From: a virus
Strand: one strand, 5' to 3'
Virus record (IMG/VR): IMGVR_UViG_3300027494_000019
Span: 1-23,521 of that record
DNA length: 23,521 bases
Below the pieces are notes generated by a model, which searched no databases, had not been told where the DNA came from, and saw only the letters and a list, made by a program, of their open reading frames with translations. Below, piece after piece: positions 6,872-23,367 of the stretch; position 1 is the stretch's first letter, and each line of letters opens with the position of its first letter. Both the position numbers and the translations under genes were made by a program.

Positions 6872-6897
6872 GCGTTTCTAATATTTTATCTGATATT

Positions 6898-7122: not shown

Positions 7123-7133
7123 ATGATTATATA

Positions 7134-8726: not shown

Positions 8727-8762
8727 ATTAGTATATTAATTAGTTAGTTAAGTTATTGGTTA

Positions 8763-9326
8763 TTATAGGTCGAGGTTTAGTAATGCATAACCATCATCAT
8801 CAGCAGAACCTAGATAAGTTCCAACTTTAACGTAAGAACCGTGGATAGCAGCATTTGACTCCAACTCTCCGAGGGTATTAATATAAGCAGCGTTACCGGC
8901 AGAAGCACCAGTAGCGTAAGCCAATACAATACCACGCTTGAGAATAGGAACAGTTTGTCCAGAGACAACTGCACTCAATTCAGCAGCCTTACGAGGATTG
9001 AAGATTAGCTTCTCGCCGTTTTCGTCTGTTTCACGAACGTCATTAAGAAGCATTCCAACGACCTTGTTAGCATCGCCAGTACCAGCGGTAGTGACGCGAG
9101 CAGTGGTTGAATAACGATCAGAAACTACGTTAGAGTAAGAAGCTCCAACAGCAGTAGCTGAAGTAATGTTTAGAGCGTCATCGGTATTTTTCCAACCGGC
9201 TCCAAGAACTTTAACGAAAGTTCCCTTGTTTACAGTTTCGAGATCAAAAGCGAACATGTTAATAACTTCATGCTCACCATAACCGCGAAATGGTTTAATT
9301 AATCTTTTAGTAGATGAATATGCCAT
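8763..9326 (-). CDS. Putative capsid decoration or head-stabilising protein
   Basis: This 187-residue protein lies between the protease-scaffold and the major capsid gene, where decoration proteins commonly sit. Residues 1-22 (TKRLIKPFRGYGEHEVINMF) lead into a small-residue-rich, beta-predicted body with many Ala, Gly, Thr and Val. The second half alternates strands and turns (VSGQTVPILKRGIVLAYATG, VKVGTYLGSADDDGYALL), resembling the small beta-barrel of capsid-decorating proteins. It shares the capsid gene's GC-richer codon choice, another sign of a highly expressed virion protein. An AGGA lies 8 bases before the ATG. No specific family was recognised; a minor capsid or spike role is the alternative. 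Confidence 0.65.
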   Translation of the reverse strand: MAYSSTKRLIKPFRGYGEHEVINMFAFDLETVNKGTFVKVLGAGWKNTDDALNITSATAVGASYSNVVSDRYSTTARVTTAGTGDANKVVGMLLNDVRETDENGEKLIFNPRKAAELSAVVSGQTVPILKRGIVLAYATGASAGNAAYINTLGELESNAAIHGSYVKVGTYLGSADDDGYALLNLDL

Positions 9327-9334
9327 AGTATTTT

Positions 9335-9350
9335 CCTATTATTTATTTGT
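9335..9350 (-). promoter_or_regulatory. Candidate late promoter/leader element before the decoration-like gene
   Basis: The minus strand reads ACAAATAAATAATAGG in the 29-base gap after the protease-scaffold gene. It aligns with the elements before the fibre, portal and 189-aa genes. Its AATAAATA differs by one base from the T4 late promoter core. The AGG also serves as part of the ribosome site. Function is inferred. Confidence 0.35.
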
Positions 9351-9355
9351 TTTGT

Positions 9356-10006
9356 TTATTTTGTAATAACGAAGCCTTCGTCATTAAAAGCTGATTGATA
9401 TTTTTGCTTTAAAGTCTTTGAAGGATTAACAACGCCAGCAGTGATTACATCATTTTGCTGAGTTCCGTTGCTAATAGCGTCATCAACGACAGTAGCATTT
9501 TCGGTAGAAGCGACAGTCTCTTGAATCTCAGTAGCCATAGTCTCTTTCTTCTCTTCTTTTGGCATCTTTGAGGCTTTATAAGACTTGTTCTTCTCCTTCA
9601 TTAAAACGCCCATCTTTTTCTTGTAGGCGGCGAAAGAATCTTCATCCAAATCTCTGATATCGTTAGCAATTACTTCCCTATCTTCGGTATCAAGATCGAA
9701 CTCTTCATCTAGTCCAGCCATTCTGGAAGAGAATAGTTCTTGCTTCTCCTTAGAAGCTTTTTCTTGTTGTAGGGTTTCTAAAGATTGCTTGAGAGCCTCA
9801 AGTTCTTTCTTTAGGTTTTCAGAATCAGAAGAGAGACTAGCGAACTTCTCTTCGGCGTTCTTGATTGCGTCTTCTTTAGCTTTTTGTTCAGCAGCGAATT
9901 TCTCAGAGGCATCTTTGAGTTGCTCTCCAATAAAATCTCTGATGGAAGAAGCGGTTGCTTCTTTAAGCAACTCATCAGTAATTTGAGATACTTCAGATAT
10001 TTTCAT
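9356..10006 (-). CDS. Possible nested scaffold protein from an internal start
   Basis: An in-frame ATG at 10006 (Met274 of the protease-scaffold) opens a 216-residue product, MKISEVSQITDELL..., made almost entirely of the coiled-coil scaffold part. A purine-rich GAAAGAAAGA stretch ends a few bases before it, a plausible though weak ribosome site. The break coincides with the junction between protease and coiled coil. Phage lambda makes its scaffold (Nu3) from inside the protease gene C in the same way. That precedent is established; its use here is inference. Confidence 0.35.
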   Translation of the reverse strand: MKISEVSQITDELLKEATASSIRDFIGEQLKDASEKFAAEQKAKEDAIKNAEEKFASLSSDSENLKKELEALKQSLETLQQEKASKEKQELFSSRMAGLDEEFDLDTEDREVIANDIRDLDEDSFAAYKKKMGVLMKEKNKSYKASKMPKEEKKETMATEIQETVASTENATVVDDAISNGTQQNDVITAGVVNPSKTLKQKYQSAFNDEGFVITK

Positions 10007-10825
10007 ATTCTTTCTTTCGATAATTACATTAGATTCCAATGTTTGTGAAATTTCTTCTGCTTTTTGCTCAATAATTTGTTCAGACTCCGGTTTTTTAACG
10101 CTAACACCGACAACATCGGCGGCAGGATTAGCAGTTAGTCCAACTCCAAGAGGGAGAACTCGACCCTTAATTTTACGGTAAATTAATTGGTTTTCATTGA
10201 GTCTTCCGCTGCCACCAAATCCGGTTAGTTTTCCTTTAATTTTTTCAATCTCTTCTTTGTCAGAAATGATAGTAGCATTTTCAATATTCTTTTCGCTTCC
10301 TTCTAGGACAGCTACTTCAAAATCATTATAACCCAATTCCCAAGAAGCACTGACCTTCATGTAATTGTTAGAAGTGGGGTCATTTGACTCTTCGATTGTA
10401 TTGGCGAGATCTTTATTAACGATCTTCCAAACAACACCGCCAAGAGTAATATTATAAGGCTCTTTTTTATCTTTGACTTGCTCTTCAGTAAGGGGAACAT
10501 CAGTTCCAAACTCAGAAAATCCTGCTGACAAAATAACACCAACAACATTTGCGCGATTGTGTTCAATATTAATTGGCTTATTAATGAAGTTTTTATATAC
10601 TTCAGTAGCAATAGACGAATCAATTACATCACCATTTTTATTAACACGATTTACGACACAAGCATTAAAAGCAATTGGCAAAAGATCCATATTAGACTCA
10701 GCATTGACTTCAGGAATAAAATTCCCTACATCAATTAGACTGGCTAATGATAGATACTTGTCTTTTTCTTCAGAGACTAATGGTCTGATTGAAGAACTAA
10801 ATGTTGTAGAGAAGTCAAATTTCAT
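9356..10825 (-). CDS. Prohead maturation protease fused to scaffold
   Basis: The product has 489 residues in two parts. Residues 1-245 look like a phage prohead protease: NKPINIEHN with candidate catalytic His89, NNYMKVSASWELG with candidate Ser149 or Ser151, and GxGLTANPAADVVGV at about 229-242, a pattern seen in capsid maturation proteases of the U35/U9-type fold. Residues 274-400 are a charged, Ala/Glu/Lys-rich coiled coil (repeated KFAAEQ, EELKK-type heptads) typical of a scaffold. The tail is acidic, then ends with a basic helix (SKTLKQKYQSAF). The gene lies one base after the 98-aa gene and just upstream of decoration and capsid genes. The protease is expected to digest scaffold and capsid arms after shell assembly. 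Met274 may be a second start (separate entry). The catalytic residues are assigned by eye. Confidence 0.8.
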   Translation of the reverse strand: MKFDFSTTFSSSIRPLVSEEKDKYLSLASLIDVGNFIPEVNAESNMDLLPIAFNACVVNRVNKNGDVIDSSIATEVYKNFINKPINIEHNRANVVGVILSAGFSEFGTDVPLTEEQVKDKKEPYNITLGGVVWKIVNKDLANTIEESNDPTSNNYMKVSASWELGYNDFEVAVLEGSEKNIENATIISDKEEIEKIKGKLTGFGGSGRLNENQLIYRKIKGRVLPLGVGLTANPAADVVGVSVKKPESEQIIEQKAEEISQTLESNVIIERKNMKISEVSQITDELLKEATASSIRDFIGEQLKDASEKFAAEQKAKEDAIKNAEEKFASLSSDSENLKKELEALKQSLETLQQEKASKEKQELFSSRMAGLDEEFDLDTEDREVIANDIRDLDEDSFAAYKKKMGVLMKEKNKSYKASKMPKEEKKETMATEIQETVASTENATVVDDAISNGTQQNDVITAGVVNPSKTLKQKYQSAFNDEGFVITK

Positions 10826-10826
10826 G

Positions 10827-11123
10827 TTATTCTAGAAAATATGTAATACTACCTACGGTTGCGGTTGCAATAGCTATTCCAGAACTATCTGGAACTCTCA
10901 AAGGAGCAGAATAGTTGCAATTCCCTTGAGCTACATAAGCAAATATACTTCCACTTGCTGTAGCACTAGCATTTGCCAAAGTAAGATTAGCTTGAGTACT
11001 TATATCAGTAATAAAAATTCTTGAATTGCCATTATTGGGTGGCTGAATCAAAACACCTGTTGTTGTAAAATTAACAGTTGTTGTTGGTACGGACGCAATA
11101 CCATTTTGAATAAAAGATTTCAT
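10827..11123 (-). CDS. Small beta-rich structural protein
   Basis: This 98-residue protein is composed mainly of Thr, Ala, Ser, Ile and Val, with alternating strand-like patterns (TTTVNFTTTGVLIQPP, SRIFITDISTQANLTL, GSIFAYVAQGN). It has no signal peptide, membrane segment or cysteine pair (single Cys near residue 70). Its ATG overlaps the TAA of the Dps-like gene by one base, so the two are translationally linked. Size, composition and position beside the protease-scaffold suggest a small virion component such as a decoration or head-fibre protein. No family was recognised. Confidence 0.65.
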   Translation of the reverse strand: MKSFIQNGIASVPTTTVNFTTTGVLIQPPNNGNSRIFITDISTQANLTLANASATASGSIFAYVAQGNCNYSAPLRVPDSSGIAIATATVGSITYFLE

Positions 11124-11488
11124 TATTTTAAAGTTGTTAAATATTTAGTCTTATTTACACTTGCTAAAATTTCATCTCTAATATTAAGCAAGTCTGTATC
11201 TTTTGCAGCATCCAATTGAGATGGTAAATCATTGCTCAAAAAGCCAATAAAAGCATCCATTGCTTGAACTGGACTAATAGATTTATAATTTTGCAAAGTT
11301 AAAACAAAAGAATCCTTAGCAATAATTCGACCATATTTACCCATGAAAACCTCTACAAATTCATCAATATAACCAGACAAAGAATCATAAAGCTCTCCAA
11401 AAGCTTCATGCTCAGAGAATCCATAGGTTTGCCAATGGAATATCTTTACTTGGTTTTGAAACTGTAACATTGAAGATAGAATATTCAT
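11123..11488 (-). CDS. Small ferritin/Dps-like protein of unknown role
   Basis: This 121-residue, mostly helical protein begins with FQNQVKIFHWQTYGFSEHEA, then LYDSLSGYIDEFVEVFMGK. The pattern (His18-Trp followed by His27, then acidic residues one helix later) resembles the first two helices of Dps/ferritin-like four-helix bundles, where such His and Glu/Asp residues bind iron. I believe phage and giant-virus proteins with the same LQNQxKxxHWQT motif form a Pfam family of unknown function (possibly DUF5856), but I could not check it. AAGGGA lies 7 bases before the ATG. Its place among head genes is unexplained. Whether a ferroxidase site is complete cannot be judged; a purely structural helical bundle is the alternative. 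Confidence 0.65.
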   Translation of the reverse strand: MNILSSMLQFQNQVKIFHWQTYGFSEHEAFGELYDSLSGYIDEFVEVFMGKYGRIIAKDSFVLTLQNYKSISPVQAMDAFIGFLSNDLPSQLDAAKDTDLLNIRDEILASVNKTKYLTTLK

Positions 11489-11489
11489 A

Positions 11490-12665
11490 TTATTTCCCTT
11501 TCTTATATTGCAGCAAGCAAGATTGGAATTTTTCTTTGTCAGTTCCCTCTTTAGAAGGGATGCATTTTTGAAGGAAGTCTTTGAAATTTTGACCTTCTGT
11601 TTCGCACATTGACTTATACTCTTCCTCTTCTTCGTAAGAAGCGTAGACTTGAGCGCGAGAGAGTTGGTCCATTGTTTTTGTTAGGACTTCTCCCTTTTTA
11701 TAAGTTGGGCCTTCGTTAGTTACTTCATATGAAATAACTTTACCCATTTGATTTGGCAAGTCTTTGATCTCTTTTACGATTCCTTCGCTGCCATAATGAT
11801 AACAGTTCTTATTTACATTTCGAACCTTCTGACCAACCATAAACATTGGTTCAGAACTCATATAATTAGCGTCAGACTCTTCGGCAAACATTACATAGTT
11901 ATGAATCATTACCATGTAATCTTCAGTAATAGCAATCTTGCCTTGTAAGAATGACTCAGTTAAATTTTCTTTAACCTTTTCATCATTTAAAGCATTGAGA
12001 ATGTTCTCTGCATGAGTTTTAATAGAATTTAAAGAGCCAACTGACATTTCTAAATATTCATTCTTGTACTCTTCCATTTCGCTCTCTTCGGATTCCATCT
12101 CGTCTTCAGGCTCCATCATTTCTTCGGCTTTTGATAAATCAGGCCAAATTTTTAAGAGTTCGCTTTGATCCCAAAGAGTCAAACCATCCCACTCTTCTTC
12201 GTTAGCTTGAGCTTTCTTTAAAGCGTCTTGCTTTGGATAGTCTTTTTCTCCGGGCTTTGCTGGCTTATAGTTCTTGCCGAGACGATCTTTCTTCTTTTGA
12301 ATATTGTGCCAAAGACCTTTTCCAGCTTCTGTTTCTAAACTAAAGACCTCTTCTGAAGCTTTAACTGGAGAACCCGCCCTCCATTGATAGCATGACCAGT
12401 ATTTGGCTTTCCATTTTGGTCCGGGGTTTTTGTCGCAGCCATGTCTTGCTCTAAAACTTTTTCTTCTAGCAGGATCATCTCTCTTGATCTCCATGTTAGG
12501 ATCACCAAAGTTAACCTTTACAACATTTCCTTTGTCATTTTTGACATAAACAGAAAACTTTTTAGGCCCATCAGGAGTCCTGAATGGCTTATTTAATGTT
12601 TTCTTTTCTTTGTCTGCGGCGACGATTTTAGAAGAAATATCGATTTCTAATTCTTTGGTTTTCAT
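11490..12665 (-). CDS. Mosaic head-associated phage protein, function unknown
   Basis: The 391-residue product looks like several modules in a row. Residues 24-100 hold a Lys/Arg-rich segment, KKFSVYVKNDKGNVVKVNFG then RKSFRARHGC and YWSCYQW, with a pair of cysteines that could bind metal. Residues 115-145 (GLWHNIQKKKDRLGKNYK) are a second basic segment. Residues 180-205 are a run of Glu, Met and Asp. Residues 208-265 are helical (SVGSLNSIKTHAENIL, KIAITEDYMVMIHNYV). Residues 275-335 form an SH3/KOW-like beta region (MVGQKVRNVNKNCYHYGSEG). The end carries three cysteines. I have seen each module in other aquatic phage structural-region proteins, but know no function. One base separates it from each neighbour. 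A scaffold-core or internal head role is possible. Confidence 0.65.
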   Translation of the reverse strand: MKTKELEIDISSKIVAADKEKKTLNKPFRTPDGPKKFSVYVKNDKGNVVKVNFGDPNMEIKRDDPARRKSFRARHGCDKNPGPKWKAKYWSCYQWRAGSPVKASEEVFSLETEAGKGLWHNIQKKKDRLGKNYKPAKPGEKDYPKQDALKKAQANEEEWDGLTLWDQSELLKIWPDLSKAEEMMEPEDEMESEESEMEEYKNEYLEMSVGSLNSIKTHAENILNALNDEKVKENLTESFLQGKIAITEDYMVMIHNYVMFAEESDANYMSSEPMFMVGQKVRNVNKNCYHYGSEGIVKEIKDLPNQMGKVISYEVTNEGPTYKKGEVLTKTMDQLSRAQVYASYEEEEEYKSMCETEGQNFKDFLQKCIPSKEGTDKEKFQSCLLQYKKGK

Positions 12666-12666
12666 G

Positions 12667-13236
12667 TTAAATATATTCTAGCCAGTTTGCTTTTTCTTGT
12701 TCTGTATCCAAGTATAGATCATTCTCATCTTCAAAATCATAATCAAGATTATAGTCTTGAATATCATTATCTGCTTGAGAGAAATCACCATCATTTGGTT
12801 CCCAAGAACCTGTAACATCAATTTCTGAAGCTCTAGCTACATCACTATCAGCTTTGCGATAAGCATCTTTAACAGTTTTACCAGCCATCATTCTTAAGAA
12901 AGTATTCACACGGGCCATTGCCCATTGTCCTCTTGTTTTTCCGGGTCTATGGCTAGAACTAAAAGCTCCAGCGCCTCTACGATAAACTTTTTTTAGTTGA
13001 CTTAAGCTTACTTTCTTAGAATATTTGCTATTATGCTCTCTAACTTTAGACTTTAAAGCTTCAACTACTTTAGCAGAAAACTCTATTGCTTTATCGCTTT
13101 TTGTTCCTGCGCTACCAGAAGGATTTTTAGCAGAACCGCTGCGCTTTTCAGAAGGTTTGGCAGGGGTCTGAGCAGAGCTTTTAGGCCCAGACCTCTTTGA
13201 TTCTATAATTTCTATTTCTAAACCTTGTAGGTTCAT
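12667..13236 (-). CDS. Phage protein with KVYxRGxGAFSSSHRP/QWAMARVNxFL domain
   Basis: The 189-residue product has three parts. Residues 12-50 are a low-complexity Ser/Lys/Pro/Gly tail, probably disordered. Residues 51-132 form a helical domain with KKVYRRGAGAFSSSHRPG and QWAMARVNTFLRMM. Residues 135-189 are strongly acidic. The central motif recurs in phage and giant-virus proteins; I believe it corresponds to a Pfam domain of unknown function (DUF5824), unverified here. The gene starts a new stretch of the operon after a 47-base gap containing TATAAATA on the minus strand, with no Shine-Dalgarno sequence. The acidic tail and basic start resemble scaffold or DNA-mimic tails, but no role can be assigned. 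Confidence 0.65.
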   Translation of the reverse strand: MNLQGLEIEIIESKRSGPKSSAQTPAKPSEKRSGSAKNPSGSAGTKSDKAIEFSAKVVEALKSKVREHNSKYSKKVSLSQLKKVYRRGAGAFSSSHRPGKTRGQWAMARVNTFLRMMAGKTVKDAYRKADSDVARASEIDVTGSWEPNDGDFSQADNDIQDYNLDYDFEDENDLYLDTEQEKANWLEYI

Positions 13237-13244
13237 AATTTGTA

Positions 13245-13261
13245 GCTTATTATTTATACAC
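13245..13261 (-). promoter_or_regulatory. Candidate late promoter with TATAAATA core
   Basis: The minus strand reads GTGTATAAATAATAAGC, with TATAAATA at 13258-13251, in a 47-base intergenic gap. TATAAATA is the established T4 late promoter core recognised by the phage sigma factor gp55. The ATG follows 14 bases later, leaving a leader of about 8 bases. The same octamer also occurs inside the fibre coding sequence near 3498, so the octamer alone is not decisive. Confidence 0.4.
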
Positions 13262-13283
13262 TAAAAATTAACTATTAAGGAAA

Positions 13284-14558
13284 TTATAATGGCCCATTTG
13301 TATTAAAGTTTGTGTAACTTAATCCTTTTAACAATCCACTCATAAATAAACCATTAGGATGAGGATAAGAATTCATGTCCATATCACAGTAAAAACTAAA
13401 ATCTAAAACAGCATTTGAACCGATTGAAGAGTCATAAGATAGGTCTTTAAATTTAGCTCCTCTAATATCGTAGCGAATAATAGTTTCGGAACTCTTATTC
13501 ATCTTGATTGAGATGTCGTATTTAGATTCTGATTTTATATCTGACAAAAGATTTCCTGAATAGTTTAAGTTTCTATATATTGTAGAGAAAGAGCCTTCTA
13601 CAGTAATTGGAGTGTTTATTTGGCGATCTACTGGGTAAACATAGCCCAATGTTTTTAATGGTTCCCTTTCTAAAGGAATGTTAAAATTAAAACTTTGTAT
13701 AGCGGCATCTTGGATTATTAGATTAGACTTGTTTTTAGATGTTGAATTAGCGTCATAAATGTCAATCACGATATCGCCGGGGAGCAAAACAGAAATTGCA
13801 TTTCCAGTTTCCTCAAAAGCTGTATTATAAGTTGGAATATTAAACGTTATGCCGGTATTTAATGTTCCGCTCTTTGGTTCTAAATACGGAGAAACTACGT
13901 TTATTCCAGAAGAGTAATACAACACATTGTGTGCTGCATAATTTACTGTAGCTTTAGGGAAATCGTTAACTTGAGCTTGAACTCCATAAGAAGTAATATA
14001 ACAATTACCGAAAGCTAAGACCGGAAACCCAGAAATACTGTTACCAATTGCATCTGTATTATTTGGAGTAATTGTTAAAAATAGATTGCGCTGATCTCTG
14101 TATTTAAAAGGATACTTAAATGTATTATTTGTGGCTTGAGTTAAATCAGAGTTGAATGAATAGTTCTGGTCTCCAAAAGAAAACCCAGACAATAAATTAC
14201 CACTAGGAAAAACTTGCCCACCATCAAATTGATCTAAATTAGGAGGCCCAAGATTAACATAGAAGCCCATTCTGGCTTCGTTTCGCAGATCTTTAATGTT
14301 GTAATTGAAACTAAGGCTAATATCAGGAGGATTTAAAGTATAATCATAAATAGTAGAAGCATTTCCTATCTCTGAGAACCTAGAAGATTGAGTATTTATC
14401 TGATAACTAAATTGATTAATTCTTTTAAGGGGCTGAATTAAATTATAAACCCCAGTTCTGAGCAGGTTGCCGTTAGGGTCAGAGAAAAAATAGCCACTCG
14501 CTGGAGCAGGTCCAACGAATAGCAATTCGTTATTATATATTACTCTGTTTGTAGCCAT
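13284..14558 (-). CDS. Putative tail-tube-like structural protein
   Basis: This 424-residue protein follows the portal gene, overlapping it by one base (TAATG). It is rich in Asn, Ser, Tyr, Phe and Gly with strand-like patterns throughout and no membrane segment or signal. The C-terminal third (TPITVEGSFSTIYRNL, then DISIKM, then IRYDIRGAKFKDLSYDS and VLDFSFYCDMD) has the alternating strand layout common in phage tail-tube proteins. The N-terminal part (QFSYQINTQSSRFSEIG, DISLSFNYN) looks similar, so the protein may hold two related beta domains. Position next to the portal would also fit a neck or head-completion protein. The structural role is likely; the precise identity is not established. 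Confidence 0.6.
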   Translation of the reverse strand: MATNRVIYNNELLFVGPAPASGYFFSDPNGNLLRTGVYNLIQPLKRINQFSYQINTQSSRFSEIGNASTIYDYTLNPPDISLSFNYNIKDLRNEARMGFYVNLGPPNLDQFDGGQVFPSGNLLSGFSFGDQNYSFNSDLTQATNNTFKYPFKYRDQRNLFLTITPNNTDAIGNSISGFPVLAFGNCYITSYGVQAQVNDFPKATVNYAAHNVLYYSSGINVVSPYLEPKSGTLNTGITFNIPTYNTAFEETGNAISVLLPGDIVIDIYDANSTSKNKSNLIIQDAAIQSFNFNIPLEREPLKTLGYVYPVDRQINTPITVEGSFSTIYRNLNYSGNLLSDIKSESKYDISIKMNKSSETIIRYDIRGAKFKDLSYDSSIGSNAVLDFSFYCDMDMNSYPHPNGLFMSGLLKGLSYTNFNTNGPL

Positions 14559-16447
14559 TAGATTTTGCTATGATAGAGCAAACTAGCCATGTAAGAATCA
14601 ACTTGATGCTCGCAAGCGATATTATGAATCTCTTCTATTCTCTTTGGGTTTTTATCTACAGGAGTTTCAATGTATTCTCCTATTTTAGAGACCCAATTAG
14701 ATTGATCTTCGTTTGCGACAATAACTTTAGTGATATCAAGGACTACTTCTTTTTGTCTTTCATTTAATTTCTTAAGTTTATGTTTTTTCTTTAAGAAACC
14801 CTCTACTTCTGCTCCTAATTTACTTGTAGCTTCTACAATGTCTTTTAATTTCATGACACTGTAATTAGCTTTAGAAGAGGTGCCGATTGGCTTTACATTT
14901 TTTGTAGTTTGCTTGATGCCTGTGCTTCCTGCTGGTCTACCGGCTGCATCTATTTTTGGTCCACCGATTAAAGGCTGATAATATCCTTTATCTTTTAAGT
15001 CAACAAAAGCTGTTTGAGATTGCACTGACTCATCTGGAGTAGGCAATACTCCAGTTTCAATAGCTTTAAGACCTTCTTCAGGAGTAAGAACCCCAAGCTC
15101 AATAAGGCGAGTATAAATTCTGTTAAGATTTTGATCGCTCTTAAGATCCATATCTTCAAAGAATGGAGTTGGGAATACTTTGAATCCTATTTCTTTAGAA
15201 ATCCTCTTAACTTCTGGCAATAAGAAGTCAGTAATAAAAGCTTGGCGAGCCTGTAATAATTTCTGCCCTAATAGAGATACTTTTGTACTAGCATTAGCGA
15301 ATTTTTCATTACCAACAAGCACATTATTTAAGCCAATATTAATATCTTTATCGATGATCTCGTATTTCTTTGGATCTAAGATGTCAGCAATTTGAGGAAT
15401 GACGAATTCGGCTTTTGTAGTATAGTCAGCAATCAAGACTCTTCCAATAGACTGATTCGCAAATAAATTTTGCATCGTCTTTAAGTTCTCTTGGTTTACT
15501 CCACCTTTATCTGGCTCTGCGCCCATTGTGACAAGAAGGATTACTTGCTGAATTGTTCTTGTAAGAGCCATGTCCATACGGCGCATTTCTATTTTTGCGC
15601 TAATATCTTCAAGAACAGGAAAACCCATTGGTACAGCGAAGGGTTCGTAATCTTGTTTCTTGTAGAATACGGCGTAGAACTTCTTTGTGTCTAAATGGAG
15701 TAAAACTGCTGTAGCTTTTCCTTTTAGAACTTGCTCTTTAACTAACGGATCAAGAGAATCCAATATCTCTTTGTCTTCTTCTGTTCTTGGATTTCTAATT
15801 TGCTCAAGCTCGTAGTCAGTTAGAACCTTATAATACTGTCCTCTATTAAAAGACAAATTACCATTAACCTGAACGTCTGCTGGATTAATGATTATGTATC
15901 TAGCAGGTAAAGAAACTCTTGCCGCCAAAGCTTGAGAACCGAAAACTTGGCTAATTTTAGACACATCCTCTTCTCTAATGGTAGTATCATATCTATAAAT
16001 AAAAACATTACCAGAACGATAATACTCTCTAAAGAACTTGTCTTGTAATGCAGTAATGTTTATCTTATTAAATAAGGCTTGGAAGAAATCTCTTGCGCTT
16101 TTATTCCCACCTTTAAGATGAATATTGCCGCAAGAAAGCTCTGACATTAGATCAATAGTATTTCTAAATAAACCAAAGTTATAGTAGGCTTTTTGGCAAA
16201 GAATTACTGTATCTCTGACATCAATATTTGATTTATTATAATTATAACCAGTGGCATAGTTAAATGGCACCATGCCGTCATCAATATTGCGAAAACGATC
16301 TGTTCTCTCAATGGTTGATGCGGCGTTTCTGCGGCTCCTCGTTTCGGTAACTCTGCTTGCTACTCCGCCATGAGCAGGAGTAGAGCCTTCTACCATCATT
16401 GGGGCGAAAGAATTTTCCGCAACTTTGTCTTTTTTAACCTTTGCCAT
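14558..16447 (-). CDS. Portal protein
   Basis: The 629-residue product lies directly downstream of the terminase large subunit and has the size and composition of a large phage portal. The N-terminal 55 residues are basic and low-complexity. The core begins with VRDTVILCQKAYYNFGLFRN (residues 77-96) and FREYYRSGNVFIYRYD (about 138-153), segments typical of the portal wing. The middle contains the long helix-rich stem/clip part (FANASTKVSLLGQKLLQARQ near 386-405). Portals form the dodecameric ring at one capsid vertex through which terminase pumps DNA. An AGG sits 5 bases before the ATG. The 24-base gap to the terminase stop contains a candidate promoter element. Confidence 0.85.
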   Translation of the reverse strand: MAKVKKDKVAENSFAPMMVEGSTPAHGGVASRVTETRSRRNAASTIERTDRFRNIDDGMVPFNYATGYNYNKSNIDVRDTVILCQKAYYNFGLFRNTIDLMSELSCGNIHLKGGNKSARDFFQALFNKINITALQDKFFREYYRSGNVFIYRYDTTIREEDVSKISQVFGSQALAARVSLPARYIIINPADVQVNGNLSFNRGQYYKVLTDYELEQIRNPRTEEDKEILDSLDPLVKEQVLKGKATAVLLHLDTKKFYAVFYKKQDYEPFAVPMGFPVLEDISAKIEMRRMDMALTRTIQQVILLVTMGAEPDKGGVNQENLKTMQNLFANQSIGRVLIADYTTKAEFVIPQIADILDPKKYEIIDKDINIGLNNVLVGNEKFANASTKVSLLGQKLLQARQAFITDFLLPEVKRISKEIGFKVFPTPFFEDMDLKSDQNLNRIYTRLIELGVLTPEEGLKAIETGVLPTPDESVQSQTAFVDLKDKGYYQPLIGGPKIDAAGRPAGSTGIKQTTKNVKPIGTSSKANYSVMKLKDIVEATSKLGAEVEGFLKKKHKLKKLNERQKEVVLDITKVIVANEDQSNWVSKIGEYIETPVDKNPKRIEEIHNIACEHQVDSYMASLLYHSKI

Positions 16448-16450
16448 AAG

Positions 16451-16468
16451 CCTAATAATTAATTACAC
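16451..16468 (-). promoter_or_regulatory. Candidate late promoter/leader element before portal
   Basis: The minus strand reads GTGTAATTAATTATTAGG, nearly the same as the element before the fibre gene (16 of 18 bases). It fills the 24-base gap between terminase stop and portal start. Its terminal AGG is close enough to the ATG to act in ribosome binding, so the conserved sequence may combine promoter and leader. Function is inferred from recurrence. Confidence 0.4.
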
Positions 16469-16471
16469 ATT

Positions 16472-18313
16472 TTAAATTAAAATTGGTGTAAATCCCGCAG
16501 CTACTATTTTATTTTCAGTAGTCATAATGTCATTATAGCATTTAGAGCCCCATTTAGCTAACATTAAAGCAGTATAATTATCTTTTCTTGCTCTATTAGG
16601 AGAATTGGAACGCTTTAAGTGTTGAGGAAGGTCAAAATTAACAGACCCACGGCTGCTGGTAGTGAACTCAACTAGTGAGCATTGCTTCTTAGTGTTATAG
16701 ACAAGCAAATCTTGGTGTTCAATTAGGTCTAACTTGTTCCAGTCTTTGTTTTCTTCTACGAAGATTATGTCTTCTGGTATTCTTTTATTTATTTCTTCAT
16801 TAAAGAAGGTTTCGTTAGCTACTGTCTTTGAAGCAAACCAGATTTTCTTATAGTCAATTGCCGCTTGTAGATTTTCATTACCTCTTCTAATGAAGGTAGT
16901 AGTGAATACTTGAGTTACTGCTATTTGTTTATTTTCAAGGTTATATTGACTCTTGGCTTTCTGAACCATCTTTGTGTATTCAATGCCTTCAAGATCGGAA
17001 TCGAAGTCAATAAACTTAATCTTCTCAGACTCTGAGTTTACGAATTGAGATTCATTATAAGTGTTGAAGAAAATATCAGCACCAGCATTATCACATATGA
17101 TATAAACAATATTAAAGCTAGTCATTAAGTAATGAAAGTATTTAATGTGAGTATTTAAACTGCCAAGACCAGCATAAGCATGAACGAGAACGTCATTTTT
17201 GTTTTCTCTGTCTATTTCCAAAATAGCCATTGCAAAATAGTCAGCATTTGGACTGTCGCTCATGTTGGGGTCCATTGCTAAGATATATTGCTTGCCGCTA
17301 TCTCCTCTAATTTGGGAGTGAGGTCTCTCTTCAAACTTAAGAGTGCATTCTTCCATCTTCTTCATGCTGAAGTAAGAGTCGCTACCATCAGTAAATTGAG
17401 CGCAATACTCTCTCAAGAAAGAAGCGTGAGAAGATCCGCCGTTTTGCGCCTCTTCTGTAATTGAAGAATCTATCATCTCTGGAGGAAGAGACTCATAGCT
17501 TAATTGAGAAACGAAATAAGTAGCACTTGTTGGCTCCTTTGAATAAATATTATCGCACCACTCTTTATAAGTCTTATAGAGGTTCTCAAAAGTATAAGAA
17601 GCAGAAGACAGAGCGATCATTTTGGAAGTATTCTTGAACTCCATGCGGTCAGCTTCAGTCATTGCGCCTTGTGCAATTAATTCATTCTCTTGTTCGCGAA
17701 TACTAATACGTTCTTTAATGTCTTGAGGCACGATCAAGAAGGGCATTAATACATTTTTGATGATGTCTTCTGGCAATAAGAGAAACTCATCAAGCACAAG
17801 AACATTAGCGCGGAAACCGCGAATCTTTTCGCCGCTTAGAGGAATAGCTTTTATTGAACCTTCGTTAATTGACCAGTCGTATTCATCATTACGCTTTGAC
17901 TTTGCGCCGAATGCTTGCATCAAAAGGTCTGCGCCTTTAGATTCGGTAATCTTTTCTATTGAATTGAAAATGCTTCTTGCTGTTCTGAAGGTTGGGCCAG
18001 CAATTAAGATTTTGCTCTTAGGTTCAAAGATGCATTGTAGGAAACAAAACACCGCAGCAGAGAAAGATTTAGAAGCACCGCGACCCCACACGTTCATGCA
18101 GAAGTTTCGGTTCAACATTCCTTTAATTACAATCTCTTGATAAGGCCATAATTTTATACCAGAAATTAGCTCTGTAGTTATCCCTATATTTGAACGCAAA
18201 AACTTAGCTAAAGTTATCTTAGCTTCCTTATCTTCAAGAGTATCTTTTAGTCTAGAATATTCATCATTTAGATTTGGGATTATTCTATTGTATTTCTCTG
18301 GGGTATACCACAT
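16472..18313 (-). CDS. terL: Terminase large subunit (packaging ATPase-nuclease)
   Basis: This 613-residue protein carries the full set of terminase motifs. The ATPase has Walker A WGRGASKS at residues 76-83, Walker B VLVLDEF with Asp175-Glu176, and a coupling motif SSAS at 236-239. The RNase H-like nuclease has candidate metal-binding aspartates Asp348 (ILAMDP), Asp408 (IICDN) and Asp578 (RKDNYTALMLAKW). It drives ATP-dependent translocation of DNA into the prohead through the portal and cuts the concatemer. Length matches T4-type terminases (about 610 residues). It lies one base after the ERCC4-type nuclease gene and 24 bases before portal. No Shine-Dalgarno sequence is visible (CTATAATATG), suggesting coupling to upstream translation. 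Confidence 0.96.
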   Translation of the reverse strand: MWYTPEKYNRIIPNLNDEYSRLKDTLEDKEAKITLAKFLRSNIGITTELISGIKLWPYQEIVIKGMLNRNFCMNVWGRGASKSFSAAVFCFLQCIFEPKSKILIAGPTFRTARSIFNSIEKITESKGADLLMQAFGAKSKRNDEYDWSINEGSIKAIPLSGEKIRGFRANVLVLDEFLLLPEDIIKNVLMPFLIVPQDIKERISIREQENELIAQGAMTEADRMEFKNTSKMIALSSASYTFENLYKTYKEWCDNIYSKEPTSATYFVSQLSYESLPPEMIDSSITEEAQNGGSSHASFLREYCAQFTDGSDSYFSMKKMEECTLKFEERPHSQIRGDSGKQYILAMDPNMSDSPNADYFAMAILEIDRENKNDVLVHAYAGLGSLNTHIKYFHYLMTSFNIVYIICDNAGADIFFNTYNESQFVNSESEKIKFIDFDSDLEGIEYTKMVQKAKSQYNLENKQIAVTQVFTTTFIRRGNENLQAAIDYKKIWFASKTVANETFFNEEINKRIPEDIIFVEENKDWNKLDLIEHQDLLVYNTKKQCSLVEFTTSSRGSVNFDLPQHLKRSNSPNRARKDNYTALMLAKWGSKCYNDIMTTENKIVAAGFTPILI

Positions 18314-18314
18314 A

Positions 18315-19253
18315 TTATAGCATTTTTAGGTCGTAGCAAAGCTGGAGATCGTATTTAAAAAAGTTCTCATCAGTAGAGAACATCTTTTCTATGATTCGAA
18401 CAGACTCTTTGCGCCCTTTTGCAAATAAGAATTGCACATGGGGATATTTCTGAATCAACTCTCTGACATTATGGAATATAAACTCAGGGTTTACCTTTGT
18501 AGCTTTCTTGTATACATGAGGAAGATAATTAAAAGACAGAGCATTACTTAAACTCTCTTCTACAATGATAACCATGTTAGCTTTGGCTTCGCTGGCTTTC
18601 TCAATCTCTCGACAAAACCTTTCGTAACCGGCGCTTAGTGTTCCAATGAAATCAGAAATAGACTTTCTCTCAAAGTAAAGCTTGCCATCATAACTTGGAT
18701 GACTAAACCCATAGTCTCCAAACTTAAGAGTACGAACTTCAGATGCCATATTAAATATAAACGGCTTCTGCTCTCGCGTATCAATGTAAATGATTGACCC
18801 TTTGGTTTGTAATGGTGCTAAATTATCTAAACTCTCTGGGTATATGTATTTATTTTTAAATCCAAGATCTCCAGTGAACTGATAATAATCACCAAAAATT
18901 TCTTGTAAGTAAATAACGCTCGGGCTCAAGACACTGCGAAGCTCAACTTGAGATGGAGTATATGCTAGACCTTTCTTTTCTTTTCTCTTGATGAGAAAGT
19001 CTTTGCAGTACTCTTTCTGTTTCTCTAGTGATTGAGCTTTGAGCCAGTTTTTTAGATTATTTTTATTGTTAAAGTCAGTATTAAAGTACTGCTCTTTATT
19101 CTTGTAAATAATTATGGAGTTATCGAAAGCATCATAGCGAGGATGATGTTGTTGATAGTACTCTATTACTCTTAGTTTGTGAGCTTTGAGATGGCGATTA
19201 AAGTCTGCATCTACCTCATAAGCTTTTTGACATATTTTACATGTTTCAGCCAT
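18315..19253 (-). CDS. ERCC4-fold nuclease with N-terminal C2H2 zinc finger
   Basis: The 312-residue product combines two recognisable parts. Residues 5-25 are a textbook C2H2 finger: Cys5-x2-Cys8-x12-His21-x3-His25. Residues 153-260 show the XPF/MUS81 ERCC4 nuclease signature: IYIDTREQ (Asp158, Arg160, Glu161), FGDYGF (Asp180), FERKSISDF (Glu195-Arg196-Lys197, Asp201), then YERFCREIEKA. ERCC4 enzymes cut branched or flapped DNA with metal bound at the ERKxxxD motif. Residues 30-145 are unassigned and Lys/Tyr-rich. The start overlaps the upstream gene by 8 bases and is preceded by GAGGTG. Placement immediately before terminase suggests a role in resolving branched DNA before packaging, as endonuclease VII does in T4; a homing or recombination role is possible. 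The domain call is strong, the role inferred. Confidence 0.85.
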   Translation of the reverse strand: MAETCKICQKAYEVDADFNRHLKAHKLRVIEYYQQHHPRYDAFDNSIIIYKNKEQYFNTDFNNKNNLKNWLKAQSLEKQKEYCKDFLIKRKEKKGLAYTPSQVELRSVLSPSVIYLQEIFGDYYQFTGDLGFKNKYIYPESLDNLAPLQTKGSIIYIDTREQKPFIFNMASEVRTLKFGDYGFSHPSYDGKLYFERKSISDFIGTLSAGYERFCREIEKASEAKANMVIIVEESLSNALSFNYLPHVYKKATKVNPEFIFHNVRELIQKYPHVQFLFAKGRKESVRIIEKMFSTDENFFKYDLQLCYDLKML

Positions 19254-20364
19254 TTAACACCTCGTCCTCTGAAATTCCTAAGATACGGCACTTGATTTCA
19301 TCCATTGTAGAGAGGCGATCTATTTCATTCTTTACCATCGCCTTTCTCCTTTCAGCAAGTTTTAATAATTGCATACGAGATTCTTCTTCTTTCCACATTT
19401 GAACTAGATTAAGGATGCTGGCGTTCTCTTTTATTTGCTTGCTAAGACGATCACTTCGCTTTACCTTAAGGTCATTAAGAAGTTTTTGTTGGCGAATGGT
19501 CGATTGGTTATATTCGTCTCTTGCTCCACTGATTGCTTCAATGAGAGCCATTGGCAATTTGCCGCCGCCATCAATTTCTACATCAATTTGATTTTGAAGA
19601 GTTTGAATTGTCTCTTGAATATTAGCAGAGATAACTACTTCAGTAGCTAGAACAATGTATTGATCTACTTCTTCTTGAGTGAGGTCTGGTTTATCAAATG
19701 TATAACGAACAAAAGAGCTTTCAAATAACTCACGATCAATGTTAGAAGAGTAACTATTTATCTGATGCAAGAAACGATAAGTGTGCATGTATCCAATGAT
19801 AGCATTAACAGAAGCCTTCTGGCGTGAAGTGACTTTATCTTTATCAATACCTTCATGAACATACTTGTTGATTCGAAAAAGCATGCGCTCAAAAGTCTTT
19901 GGCGGCATGTATTGAGAATCTGCAAGACTCTCTGTATCTCTTTGTGAGACTGGACCTGCTTGAATTACTTTCTGGTCAAGAGTCTTAATGAAATCAATTA
20001 CAGTACGAGTTTCTTGACTGAGGCTAGTAAGGTTTTGATTATTGAAAATACTTTTAGTAATCTCAAGTGCGCCCATTGAACCTGCATTGTTAGCAGTAAA
20101 CTCTTTTTGTTCTGGAGATAGTTCAATCTTATCTTTTGCCAAGTACTCATACGAAGCCCTTGCTTTAATTTGTCTTGTGGATAAGAACTCTTTAACTTTC
20201 TTGCCGTGCCAACTTCTACCGTCTGCGCCTTCAATGTTAGGAAAAGCAACCCTAACAAGTTCAAGCAAAGAAGGAGGATTAGTAGGGCGATTGTTCCACT
20301 CATTTAAAATTGCCAGTCGCTGTTGGTCATTAAGTTCTTGAGGTTGGTTTTCATTTTCAGCCAT
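19246..20364 (-). CDS. Putative terminase small subunit-like DNA-binding protein
   Basis: The 372-residue product is mostly helical. Residues 12-68 (DQQRLAILNEWNNRP, LLELVRVAFPN, DGRSWHGKKVKEFLSTRQ) look like a helix-turn-helix DNA-binding domain. Residues 265-360 form a long charged helical region (ARDEYNQSTIRQQKLLNDLK, ERRKAMVKNEIDRL) suited to oligomerisation. It lies two genes upstream of the terminase large subunit, and overlaps both neighbours by 8 bases. GGAGAAG lies about 9 bases before the ATG. Position and architecture (HTH then coiled coil) match a small terminase that recognises packaging DNA, but the protein is about twice the usual length and no specific family was recognised. 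A transcription regulator is the main alternative. Confidence 0.5.
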   Translation of the reverse strand: MAENENQPQELNDQQRLAILNEWNNRPTNPPSLLELVRVAFPNIEGADGRSWHGKKVKEFLSTRQIKARASYEYLAKDKIELSPEQKEFTANNAGSMGALEITKSIFNNQNLTSLSQETRTVIDFIKTLDQKVIQAGPVSQRDTESLADSQYMPPKTFERMLFRINKYVHEGIDKDKVTSRQKASVNAIIGYMHTYRFLHQINSYSSNIDRELFESSFVRYTFDKPDLTQEEVDQYIVLATEVVISANIQETIQTLQNQIDVEIDGGGKLPMALIEAISGARDEYNQSTIRQQKLLNDLKVKRSDRLSKQIKENASILNLVQMWKEEESRMQLLKLAERRKAMVKNEIDRLSTMDEIKCRILGISEDEVLNG

Positions 20365-21049
20365 AAATTTCTACTTCTCCATTCACAATGCACTTCTTAG
20401 CTTTTACAAGTATAGAACGCTTTAAGTTCTTTATTTGCTTGTATCCGGGGGAACGATTCTTTTCAGTGGTCTTGAATCCTAGAACTTTTGCAACTTCTTC
20501 TTCTCTCTGATTTCTCAAGCAAAGCATTTCATAAACTATCCACTCTGCTGGCTTTAATACTTTTCTTAATGCTGATGATAAACTCTGAGTACTTCTTAGA
20601 AGGTCAAAACCTTCGTTAGTCATGTCGTGAACTTCTTTAATATGATTCTCAAGAGGGAGGGTTACTTTTGTATTGAAAGCGTCTTTCTTATTGTTTTCCC
20701 AATGAGCATACAAGGGGCACTTCTTACACTGTTCTCCATATATTGAACAAGAATCATCCCACTCTGCCGCCGCACACTTCAAACAAGGTCTGGCATAATT
20801 ACCATAGTTGTTTCTTATAATGTTTTTTATTTGATTGGATATGATAATGTTTAACCAAGGGGCAAGGGGTTTTTTCTGATCGTATAGACTCCATTTTTTA
20901 TAAATATGAATCCTCAATATCTGCTCAACGTCCTCGAAATCAATCCAAGACAATGCGGCAAGGTTCCACTTGTTTTTGCGTTTGCGAATTTCTTCGTCTA
21001 CGATAGCAATGTTCTTTTCAAAGGTTTCTTTTTGGACTTTTTGAGCCAT
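20357..21049 (-). CDS. Sigma-70-family-like phage sigma factor with cysteine-rich insertion
   Basis: The 230-residue protein has the two parts of a compact sigma factor. Residues 36-80 (WIDFEDVEQILRIHIYKKW, then PLAPWLNIIISNQIKNIIR) match region 2, which binds core polymerase and the -10 element. Residues 157-220 (LRKVLKPAEWIVYEMLCLRN, EEEVAKVLGF, then a recognition-helix-like KQIKNLKRSILVKAKK) match region 4. Between them lies Cys89-x2-Cys92-x8-Cys101-x6-Cys108-x2-Cys111, probably a zinc-binding insertion. The length is close to that of T4 late sigma gp55. AAGG precedes the ATG by 10 bases; one base separates it from the zinc-ribbon gene, and it overlaps the next gene by 8. It may drive the late head genes downstream. 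The domain call rests on pattern recognition; an HTH regulator is the alternative. Confidence 0.75.
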   Translation of the reverse strand: MAQKVQKETFEKNIAIVDEEIRKRKNKWNLAALSWIDFEDVEQILRIHIYKKWSLYDQKKPLAPWLNIIISNQIKNIIRNNYGNYARPCLKCAAAEWDDSCSIYGEQCKKCPLYAHWENNKKDAFNTKVTLPLENHIKEVHDMTNEGFDLLRSTQSLSSALRKVLKPAEWIVYEMLCLRNQREEEVAKVLGFKTTEKNRSPGYKQIKNLKRSILVKAKKCIVNGEVEIYG

Positions 21050-21050: not shown

Positions 21051-21452
21051 TTATTTTTGCCTTAATGTACCGGCTTCTTTTTTAAACATTTTAAGAGTAT
21101 CTTTTACAGAGAGACCTTCTGCTCCTCTTGCTCCAAAACCTGCCATGCTGTCTGGCATTGTTGCGGCAATCTTTGCAAGAGATTCTTTTCTTGGGCCTTC
21201 CGCTTGATACTCAACTTCTAAACCATTTTTTAAATCAGGAATTGATGCATCATTTTCTTCATCATCGCTTTCATCATCGTCCTGCTCGTCATACTCTTCT
21301 TGAGCGCGAACTTTGTTTTCTCTTGCCTTTTTATCTTGTGGCTTTTCTACGATAACACCATAGAATGCTGTGCCACACGCAGAGCAAAACTTTGGCTTTG
21401 CTTGAGCGTACAAATTAGGATTTCCACATTGAGAGCAGTAAATTTTTTGCAT
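21051..21452 (-). CDS. Zinc-ribbon protein with acidic linker
   Basis: The 133-residue product begins with a zinc ribbon: Cys6-x2-Cys9, then Cys23-x2-Cys26. A short basic stretch is followed by an extreme acidic run at about residues 52-68 (EEYDEQDDDESDDEEND). The C-terminal 50 residues include DSMAGFGARGAEGLSVKDTL and a basic helix (FKKEAGTLRQK). Nothing identifies an enzyme. It is the first gene of the minus-strand array and directly precedes the sigma-like gene with a one-base gap, so it could be a transcription accessory protein. That is guilt by association only. A good sigma-70-type promoter sits immediately upstream, leaving a leader of only about 7 bases without a Shine-Dalgarno sequence. 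Confidence 0.7.
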   Translation of the reverse strand: MQKIYCSQCGNPNLYAQAKPKFCSACGTAFYGVIVEKPQDKKARENKVRAQEEYDEQDDDESDDEENDASIPDLKNGLEVEYQAEGPRKESLAKIAATMPDSMAGFGARGAEGLSVKDTLKMFKKEAGTLRQK

Positions 21453-21494: not shown

Positions 21495-21510
21495 GTGTAA
21501 TTGTAATAGA

Positions 21511-21786
21511 ATGAAGTATTCATTTAAGAATTACGAAAAAGTTGAATACACCATTAATTGGGTCAAACCCCCTAAAGGGTGCTACGGTATATGCGATTCC
21601 CCAGAGATGGAGAATCCAAAGATAAAGATTGACCCTAAATTAACCAAACAAAAGACAGTCAACATTCTAATACATGAAGTATTACACGCATTTTTCTGGC
21701 AAGAATCAGAAACAAAAGTAACTAAATGCGCGAACACTTTATCAAGACTCATCCACCAAAGGATGAAACAAAAGTTTAATGAATGA
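21511..21786 (+). CDS. Small HExxH putative zinc metallopeptidase
   Basis: This 91-residue plus-strand protein contains NILIHEVLHAFFWQ, an HExxH zinc-binding motif at residues His54-Glu55-x2-His58, in a predicted helix. The rest fits a minimal gluzincin/SprT-like core: two strands before the helix (EYTINWVKPP, PKIKIDP) and one helix after it (ANTLSRLIHQRMKQK). A third zinc ligand is not certain; Glu62 or later acidic residues are candidates. Such mini-proteins of about 90-120 residues are common in phages and their substrates are unknown. It is one of two plus-strand genes in the window, diverges from the zinc-ribbon gene and overlaps the PhoH gene tail-to-tail by 11 bases. No good ribosome site precedes the ATG. 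Confidence 0.78.
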   Translation: MKYSFKNYEKVEYTINWVKPPKGCYGICDSPEMENPKIKIDPKLTKQKTVNILIHEVLHAFFWQESETKVTKCANTLSRLIHQRMKQKFNE

Positions 21787-22498
21787 TTGACTTGTATTTA
21801 GTAATCTTATCAACAATAAAGCGAGTAATACCACTTCTCATAATATCTTCTTGCCCAAGCTTAAAGTATTGAATGCCATTGTCTCGGCTATCTTGGTCTT
21901 GGAAGATATCACAGAACTCTTTGAACCCAGACTTCTTGCCTAGGTCATTTTGCATAATAGTATCACCACAAATAAATAGCTTACTAAATTTACCCATTCG
22001 GGTTGCCGCCGTTACAAGAGAATCAAACATCATGTTCTGACCCTCATCCAAAATAACGGAATTAACGTTAAAGGTATAGCCGCGAAGCAGAGAAACAGGG
22101 TAAGTTTTGATCCTTTCTTGCTTATTTAGTAATTCGATGCTGGATTTATTTAGTAATTCTTCTAGCTTATCAAATAGAGGTACGTTATAGAAGAAAGTCT
22201 TTTCGTCTAAGTCGCCAGTTAAGAAGCCAGTTTGACCATCTGTGCTTTGAATTAGGGATCGGATATATACAATATCAGAAATCTTTTTAGCCTTTAGTAA
22301 TTCTAGCGAGCAATAAACACTCAGTAGAGTCTTGGCTGTGCCGGGAAGCCCATCTAGAATGATTATATTAGTAGACTTGTCTAAGGCCGCTTGAATAATT
22401 TGTTCTTGTTTCGGGGTCCATTTTAATTTACGAATTTCAAAGTCATCTTTTACTTTGTCTTTTTGAGAAACGTGGGGGGAGTTATCTTTTTTTGACAT
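21776..22498 (-). CDS. phoH: PhoH-like P-loop ATPase
   Basis: The 240-residue protein has the PhoH order of motifs: a Q-motif-like LKWTPKQEQIIQAAL start (residues 25-39), Walker A GLPGTAKT at 50-57, the family-typical GFLTGDLDEK at 91-100, Walker B VILDEGQN with Asp151-Glu152, and CGDTxQND at 177-184. The usual G-P-A-G-T-G-K-T and D-E-A-Q-N are slightly altered (A55 for G, G153 for A). PhoH proteins are predicted RNA-directed ATPases, frequent in phages of aquatic bacteria; their job in infection is not settled. AAGG lies 9 bases before the ATG. A good promoter lies upstream, inside the opposing gene. Confidence 0.93.
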   Translation of the reverse strand: MSKKDNSPHVSQKDKVKDDFEIRKLKWTPKQEQIIQAALDKSTNIIILDGLPGTAKTLLSVYCSLELLKAKKISDIVYIRSLIQSTDGQTGFLTGDLDEKTFFYNVPLFDKLEELLNKSSIELLNKQERIKTYPVSLLRGYTFNVNSVILDEGQNMMFDSLVTAATRMGKFSKLFICGDTIMQNDLGKKSGFKEFCDIFQDQDSRDNGIQYFKLGQEDIMRSGITRFIVDKITKYKSIIH

Positions 22499-22519
22499 TT
22501 TAATTAGCCTTACTATTTT
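22492..22519 (+). promoter_or_regulatory. Candidate promoter for the plus-strand cysteine-rich gene
   Basis: A perfect TTGACA at 22492-22497 is followed after 16 bases by TATTTT (22514-22519), four of six matches to the -10 consensus. The start would be near 22526, about 14 bases before the ATG at 22540, with no Shine-Dalgarno sequence. The -35 overlaps the first codon of the divergent PhoH gene. Confidence 0.4.
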
Positions 22520-22529
22520 AATTACATGT

Positions 22530-22557: not shown

Positions 22558-22881
22558 GTTACAGTTGTGAACCCCAAGACTTGCAGGAAGAAGATTCGTT
22601 GTGAGGGGTGCGAACTGGCGTATAGTAAAGAGGATTATTTATTATTCTTCACTGTTCGTAAGCTTGTTTATTTTAATATGATTGCTGAAGATGGGAAGCA
22701 AATGAAGATTTGCGACTCTTGTTTAGTGTCTCTCGCTTCGATGACTTGCGCGAAATATGATTTACCATATATTACTATTATAATTAAAGGCGAGGAAAAT
22801 ACAAAACAAATAAATATCGAGTATAGTGGAGACAAATCTTTTGAGCAAGAATTACTAAAAGTCTTTAACAAGATCAATTAA
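22540..22881 (+). CDS. Small cysteine-rich putative zinc-binding protein
   Basis: The 113-residue product is not recognised. It contains Cys21-x2-Cys24 (RCEGC) and Cys58-x2-Cys61 (ICDSC) separated by 33 residues, the layout of a split zinc ribbon, plus Cys15 and Cys70. The N-terminal strand KFQVTVV and C-terminal strands (YITIIIKG, INIEYSG) flank the cysteine core. No signal peptide or membrane segment is visible. It diverges from the PhoH gene, with back-to-back promoters, and its last 27 bases overlap the end of the HNH gene on the other strand. The -10 of the PhoH promoter ends at its ATG, so transcription of one gene may hinder the other. Role unknown. Confidence 0.7.
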   Translation: MRNKFQVTVVNPKTCRKKIRCEGCELAYSKEDYLLFFTVRKLVYFNMIAEDGKQMKICDSCLVSLASMTCAKYDLPYITIIIKGEENTKQINIEYSGDKSFEQELLKVFNKIN

Positions 22882-23367
22882 TTTTTGCCGCGATTCTTCT
22901 GTTCTCTGATCTGGAGTAGTGATATTTTTATAATACTGCATTACTCCAATCATAGAATTAATATTGTTTTTATTTTTTAATGCATTACCTTCGAAAGAGA
23001 CAATCTTAACATTGTCTGGTACATAGCCCTTATTTGGGTCTATCCTATCTAATGATGCAGATCTTTTATTATCTACTCCTGACTTATATAGTATTTCGCA
23101 GCCCAAAATGGGGCAGATATTATTTTTAATCTTTATTAAATCCGCAAGAGTGAGGTTGAACTCTATATTTTTCTTTTTTGAACGCATCTTGGCGGCTCTC
23201 AATATTACTTTTCTTAAATAGTAATTTTCGCCATCCATAGGGTCTTCCATTTTTTCCTTTTGTCTCTCGTATTCTAGAGAATAACAACAAGTATTGCACT
23301 TGTCTTTTGATCTACTGAATTCTGTATCTTCTTTCTCAGCTTGACACACAGAACATTTGATTAACAT
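22855..23367 (-). CDS. HNH-type endonuclease with N-terminal zinc-binding segment
   Basis: The 170-residue product has two cysteine-based parts. Residues 5-28 (Cys5-x2-Cys8 ... Cys24-x2-Cys27) resemble a zinc ribbon. Residues 85-130 hold CPILGCEI, SLDRIDPNKGYVPDNVKIVS and the final Asn-rich helix (GNALKNK), a pattern characteristic of phage HNH nucleases in which SLDRID supplies the first metal-site residue. Such enzymes are often free-standing homing endonucleases; others nick DNA during packaging or repair. Its position at a divergent gene border is typical for homing genes, though no intron or intein is seen here. No ribosome site stands before the ATG; the start codon lies at the edge of a perfect inverted repeat. 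It overlaps the plus-strand gene by 27 bases. Confidence 0.82.
   Translation of the reverse strand: MLIKCSVCQAEKEDTEFSRSKDKCNTCCYSLEYERQKEKMEDPMDGENYYLRKVILRAAKMRSKKKNIEFNLTLADLIKIKNNICPILGCEILYKSGVDNKRSASLDRIDPNKGYVPDNVKIVSFEGNALKNKNNINSMIGVMQYYKNITTPDQRTEESRQKLIDLVKDF

Follow-up and report, generated by a model that had tools for sequence, protein, structure and literature searches.

The sigma gene and its neighborhood

The window, which is the whole stretch of viral DNA that was analyzed and corresponds to one complete virus record of 23,521 bases, contains an open reading frame (ORF) at 20357-21049 on the minus strand. This ORF begins with ATG and encodes a protein of 230 amino acids with cysteines at residues 89, 92, 101, 108, and 111. 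The translation agrees with a preliminary description of the locus in its coordinates and in the positions of the five cysteines. Profile searches and two structure predictions identify the product as a sigma factor in which region 2 is combined with a region 4 of the ECF type.

The gene lies in a block of fixed order, as compared over 295 loci in which nearly all or most neighbors are kept: PhoH, zinc ribbon, sigma factor, a 372 amino acid protein, an ERCC4 nuclease, the large terminase subunit (TerL), and a portal-like gene. In the window, all of these genes are on the minus strand. The block begins with a PhoH-like ATPase (21776-22498), which was assigned by family searches and locus comparison. 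It is followed by the zinc-ribbon protein (21051-21452), which adjoins the sigma gene upstream and is a conserved neighbor in the relatives. The next gene downstream of the sigma gene, which encodes the 372 amino acid protein (19246-20364), overlaps the sigma stop codon and holds the same place in 293 of the 295 loci. Then come the ERCC4-type nuclease (18315-19253), recognized by family searches and locus comparison and bearing an N-terminal C2H2-like finger, and TerL (16472-18313), which matches PHROG phrog_2 with E = 7e-27. The last gene (14558-16447) has no family match, and it is called portal-like on the basis of its position after TerL and its sequence character. Because the window genes from 21452 down to 16472 abut or overlap, the sigma gene belongs to the terminase operon.

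The zinc-ribbon neighbor mentioned in the preliminary description is real and conserved. BLAST placed it directly upstream of the sigma gene in 239 of the 295 loci, and it was identified by eye in L231, L243, and L270, where BLAST had missed it. The pattern CxxC...CxxC is present in all 240 zinc ribbons that were found. No anti-sigma gene was recognized beside the sigma gene. Some other features of the window were also recorded. The finger of the ERCC4 nuclease, whose gene directly precedes TerL, keeps CxxC...HxxH in 213 of 294 relatives. An Endonuclease VII-like protein is encoded at 22855-23367 (minus strand), and its PHROG matches of weaker E-value include a decoy of host sigma70 and the Srd anti-sigma factor. 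At the other end, positions 1-6798 (minus strand) are occupied by an open-ended, tail-fiber-like ORF of at least 2266 amino acids with many GNVGIGT-type repeats.

The relatives of the sigma protein comprise 187 distinct sequences from IMG/VR and two Flavobacteriales or Flavobacteriaceae MAG contigs. Most of the search seeds had no cysteines and some contained them, so that a slight bias of this sample is possible. The family is plentiful in environmental phage contigs, with at least 592 matches. A search of 50,697 named phage records, which may lack entries very close to the window, returned no relative of the window protein or of L083, and a weak match of L231 among the named phages proved to be a different short sigma factor. 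The 187 relatives close at the C-terminus with an acidic-hydrophobic peptide, for example GEIDFL, GDIDIL, or KEEDL. A second sigma-like family, of 186-210 amino acids, was observed at L302:15905-16516 (+), L307:7935-8489 (-), L323:3760-4350 (-), L325:302-859 (-), and L326:521-1147 (+). In the contig G005, a third, primary-like sigma factor lies at about L323:19316-20000 and runs on into L324.

Sigma regions and the linker cysteines

Region 2 corresponds to residues 6-85 (20795-21034, minus strand). Pfam Sigma70_r2 (PF04542) matches the window protein at residues 34-81 with E = 4.4e-5 and 23.6 bits, narrowly missing the cut-off of 24. In a profile search, the same family was found in 95 of 95 aligned relatives at E ≤ 0.01, and its cut-off is exceeded in 15 of the 16 large related contigs. 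The NCBIfam profile sigma70-ECF (TIGR02937) covers residues 16-193 of the window protein, which takes in both regions, and it matches 95 of 95 relatives at E ≤ 0.001. The curated cut-off of this profile is 42.9 bits; the window protein scores 26.5 and the best of the four relatives listed scores 42.3. Since its score is below the cut-off, the protein is named here an ECF-like phage sigma factor and is not counted among the curated ECF members.

For region 4, Pfam gave no match to the window protein, and Sigma70_r4_2 was found in only 4 of the 95 relatives. The region 4-like helical domain at residues 150-224 (20378-20602, minus strand) was delimited by structure. In an AlphaFold2 model built on the 95-sequence alignment (mean pLDDT 83.5), residues 152-223 overlay region 4 of SigD from M. 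tuberculosis at 1.7 Å over 62 residues, while residues 6-82 overlay the N-terminal domain of SigE at 2.4-2.5 Å over 73 residues. The majority of the fold matches of the model are sigma factors; a search of the PDB with the sequence profile of the protein returned nothing significant. The pTM of the model is low (0.43), and the relative placement of the region 2 and region 4 halves is not predicted. Apart from the cysteine module, the model has no extra helical domain between the two regions. The profile matches and the predicted fold both bear out the preliminary description, in which a region 2-like and a region 4-like part had been proposed on either side of the cysteines.

Regions 2 and 4 are joined by a linker of about 65 residues, which holds a putative metal-binding module at residues 86-120 (20690-20794, minus strand) with the pattern C89-x2-C92-x8-C101-x9-C111. 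These four cysteines are all present in 174 of the 187 distinct relatives in the alignment, giving a CCCC ligand set. The remaining 13 relatives group together as a single derived clade (support 96/99) with NPCPDQHLSDHDPLTCPICTKW in this stretch. Here C92 and C101 have been lost, two histidines and one new cysteine have been gained, and the resulting motif is shorter and of the form C/H/H/C/C. The balancing of lost ligands by gained ones is the behavior of a metal site under selection. Cysteine 108, on the other hand, varies freely and is Cys in only 84 of the 187 relatives, which rules out a five-cysteine site. No cysteine after C111 is conserved among the 187 relatives, and there is no C-terminal Cys-rich domain.

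The model is consistent with a folded module. In a first model, built on 31 sequences, the cysteine region was unresolved. With the deeper alignment of 95 sequences it was resolved, and residues 91-120, with block-mean pLDDT of 83-89, form short strands followed by a helix that begins after C111. The preliminary description had proposed a five-cysteine insertion and a zinc knuckle between regions 2 and 4. A metal-site-like cluster does lie there and includes all five cysteines, but the conserved site has four ligands and C108 is dispensable. Taken together, the conservation pattern suggests a four-ligand metal site that probably binds zinc, with the fifth cysteine incidental. The open-access literature yielded no description of an ECF linker with a four-ligand metal site, or of a phage sigma factor whose linker binds zinc.

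The GTGTAA element

A short motif, GTGTAA, recurs before genes in the related contigs. In nine of these contigs it precedes 111 genes, compared to 4.2 expected, and among all hexamers before ORFs it ranks first in seven contigs and second and fourth in the other two. In G001, the closest large relative of the window, it ranks only fourth, with 5 genes. Gene starts in the relatives came from a simple longest-ORF caller, and single GTGTAA sites may be misplaced. No enrichment of the motif was observed in the T4 late region, in the Microcystis phage MaeS, in the Cellulophaga phage phi38:1, or before 81 Flavobacteriaceae MAG genes.

The position of the motif is more specific than its frequency alone. 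Within 60 nt before the portal gene, GTGTAA is present in 90 of 99 distinct upstream sequences (4.4 expected), and within 60 nt before PhoH in 72 of 101 (5.0 expected). It also precedes the SprT-like gene in 14 of 21 distinct upstream sequences. It is absent before genes internal to the block, namely the sigma gene (0/155), the 372 amino acid gene (0/131), ERCC4 (0/169), and TerL (0/166). The contrast between the portal and PhoH genes and the internal genes of the same block indicates that GTGTAA marks the heads of transcription units. The annotated genes that follow it include two tape measures and genes for virion structural, tail fiber, minor tail, and tail-fiber-assembly proteins. Some of the genes that follow it are non-structural, among them the ribonucleotide reductase small subunit, PhoH, and a cytidyltransferase-like gene. 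The replication block of the distant contig G016 (UvsX, DnaB, primase, exonuclease, and polymerase) has almost no GTGTAA.

In the window itself, GTGTAA occurs at 16463-16468 (minus strand) before the portal-like gene, where it is a candidate -10-like element of a late promoter. It occurs again at 6825-6830 (minus strand), between a terminator-like hairpin, which it directly follows, and the giant tail-fiber-like gene, an arrangement shared with G001, and at 21495-21500 (plus strand), 10 nt before the SprT-like gene. Two weak variants were noted, TGTAATTAA at 22518-22526 (minus strand) before PhoH and GTGTATAA at 13254-13261 (minus strand) before the ORF at 12667-13236, the latter being the same in G001. 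The count of GTGTAAT in the window, 5 compared to 2.5 expected, is not significant; the case rests on the relatives. No strong position corresponding to a -35 element was found upstream of GTGTAA in the related contigs. From its placement, mostly before late genes or operon heads, GTGTAA(T) is a candidate late promoter, for which no paper was found in the open-access literature.

Host-type promoters are a separate matter. The preliminary description had assigned one to the sigma gene, and TATAAT-type sites do precede the zinc-ribbon gene (TTGCTT-17-TATAAT) and PhoH (TTGAAA-16-TATAAT). These candidates are weak, however, as the scan as a whole returned 53 sites and shuffled sequences gave 49.8. 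The GCAACTC words that appeared in a motif search of G001 were rejected as a promoter signal because they are part of a palindromic repeat. It is a dispersed inverted repeat of 37 bp, [GC]A[GC]TTGC-N23-GCAA[GC]T[GC] with a G+C-rich center, found in L297 (G001) at 8316-19239 and in L305 (G016) at 2269-7488. G001 carries 15 copies in its early region and G016 carries 5; they are mostly intergenic, and several of those in G001 are close to terminators or TTGACA-like promoters. Possible roles are those of operators, stoperators, or recombination cassettes similar to the T4-type PeSLs.

Late transcription: proposed mechanism, alternatives, and known systems

The reading that we consider probable is that a phage sigma factor of the ECF type, with a metal-held linker, steers the host core polymerase to GTGTAA(T) late promoters. 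The protein, which has regions 2 and 4 and lacks region 3, would bind the host core RNA polymerase. A phage multisubunit RNA polymerase was rejected, and the host core is assumed, because the 16 related contigs, which are fragments, gave no RpoB match. It would steer the polymerase to late promoters of the phage, which have GTGTAA(T), a single -10-like element, as their main signal and lack a conserved -35. C89, C92, C101, and C111 would together bind a single metal ion, most likely zinc, around which the linker folds; this would probably shape the linker where it passes through the polymerase, or offer a docking surface. Since the operon of PhoH, zinc ribbon, sigma factor, and terminase is headed by GTGTAA in most relatives, the sigma factor probably amplifies its own synthesis. 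Several points count against this explanation. GTGTAAT is not enriched in the window and the motif ranks only fourth in G001, 11 of the 16 fragmentary contigs have a second sigma-like gene, and some of the genes after the motif are non-structural. In addition, one would expect a -35 element to be used by a sigma factor that has region 4, and none was seen.

A more elaborate proposal can be made only tentatively. The sigma factor and the always-adjacent zinc ribbon, which may be its partner, would together form a two-protein late initiation factor that reads a -10-only GTGTAAT in a widespread lineage of uncultured phages. Many late messages would then be leaderless, as is suggested by the clades in which GTGTAA lies 8-10 nt before the start codon, where a transcript beginning 6-9 nt after the element would start at the AUG.

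It is rather unlikely that the sigma factor is real but that GTGTAA is read by another factor, such as a second phage sigma, a modified host sigma, or a phage activator, in which case the sigma factor described here would serve middle genes or its own operon only. This is suggested by the second sigma-like gene in 11 of the 16 related contigs, by the third sigma of G005, and by the non-structural genes that follow the motif. In G003, G004, and G007, however, the metal-site sigma is the only one detected and GTGTAA is strongly enriched, which favors it as the reader; these contigs are fragments, from which a further sigma or activator could be missing. Nor is the motif enriched in the sampled host-like chromosome.

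The possibility that the cysteine module is a metal or redox sensor that toggles the sigma factor by the state of the cell appears quite unlikely. There are ECF sigma factors under cysteine-based control: in CorE the linker that joins regions 2 and 4 contains a CXC, and a Cys-rich domain lies at the C-terminus (PMC8999054), while in OrbS four C-terminal cysteines serve as an iron sensor (PMC9023288). CorE, CorE2 (ECF238), and OrbS thus resemble the window protein in that cysteines are tied to the function of an ECF sigma factor. In the window protein, however, all four conserved cysteines are in the linker and would form one site, and the C-terminal domain is lacking. The near-absolute conservation, the swap from CCCC to C/H/H/C/C, and the confident fold also fit a structural zinc site better, so that the module is likely structural and not sensing.

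It is very improbable that GTGTAA is a translation or RNA-processing signal. The modal distance of 8-10 nt to the start codon in most clades would suit such a signal, but for the same gene this distance differs among clades, over a range of 8-24 nt, which favors a promoter over a ribosome site; moreover, the motif is missing before operon-internal genes and sometimes follows terminator hairpins.

The T4 protein gp55 is a short phage sigma factor for late genes that recognizes a -10-only promoter and lacks region 4. The least probable of the alternatives is a late sigma of this type, dependent on a sliding clamp and a co-activator with the zinc ribbon in the role of gp33: the late role, the -10-only motif, and tails such as GEIDFL, which recall the gp55 tail PSLDFLYEAND, are outweighed by the predicted region 4, by hhalign against the single gp55 sequence (probability 0.1, E 0.56, no similarity), and by the lack of a match to the gp45-type clamp (Pfam PF02916) in the 16 fragmentary contigs. 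A 229 amino acid protein beside the polymerase gene was considered as a clamp and rejected, as it resembles, by eye only, a PHP-type piece of a PolIII-like polymerase. No family A polymerase was found.

The observations of the preliminary description are confirmed, and its interpretation is supported for the most part but not throughout. A late role gains indirect support from GTGTAA at late operon heads and from the place of the gene in the terminase operon, while the kinship with gp55 is not sustained. Beyond the ECF type, the corrections concern the number of ligands, which is four, and the host-type promoter, which is weak; the GTGTAAT late promoter is added as a candidate. The protein is probably a small phage factor that redirects host RNA polymerase to phage late genes. 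Its metal-binding linker would add to the known designs of sigma factors, and in hundreds of contigs from uncultured phages it would be linked to a specific promoter signal. If this is true, GTGTAAT would make it possible to recognize late operons in metagenomic phages of the group, and the system would be a further case, beside phiEco32 gp36 and T4 gp55, of late promoters cut to one short element.

Among known systems, gp55 is an analog at most. It shares the small size, the late genes, and the -10-only promoter, but it also lacks the cysteine cluster. The ECF (group IV) sigma factors described by TIGR02937 likewise consist of regions 2 and 4 without region 3; the window protein differs in its long linker with a metal-site-like module, in its location in a phage terminase operon, and in its score below the curated cut-off. 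The nearest functional analog, by comparison of size, gene targets, and promoter form, appears to be gp36 of phiEco32, whose promoters consist of one short motif, tAATGTAtA, and serve middle and late genes (PMC4331800). Like gp36 and the sigma factor of phage 7-11, the window protein would be a short phage-encoded sigma that serves middle or late genes through a single short motif. The resemblance does not extend to homology, as no sequence similarity to gp36 was detectable, and gp36 has no cysteines, a different motif, and different gene surroundings.
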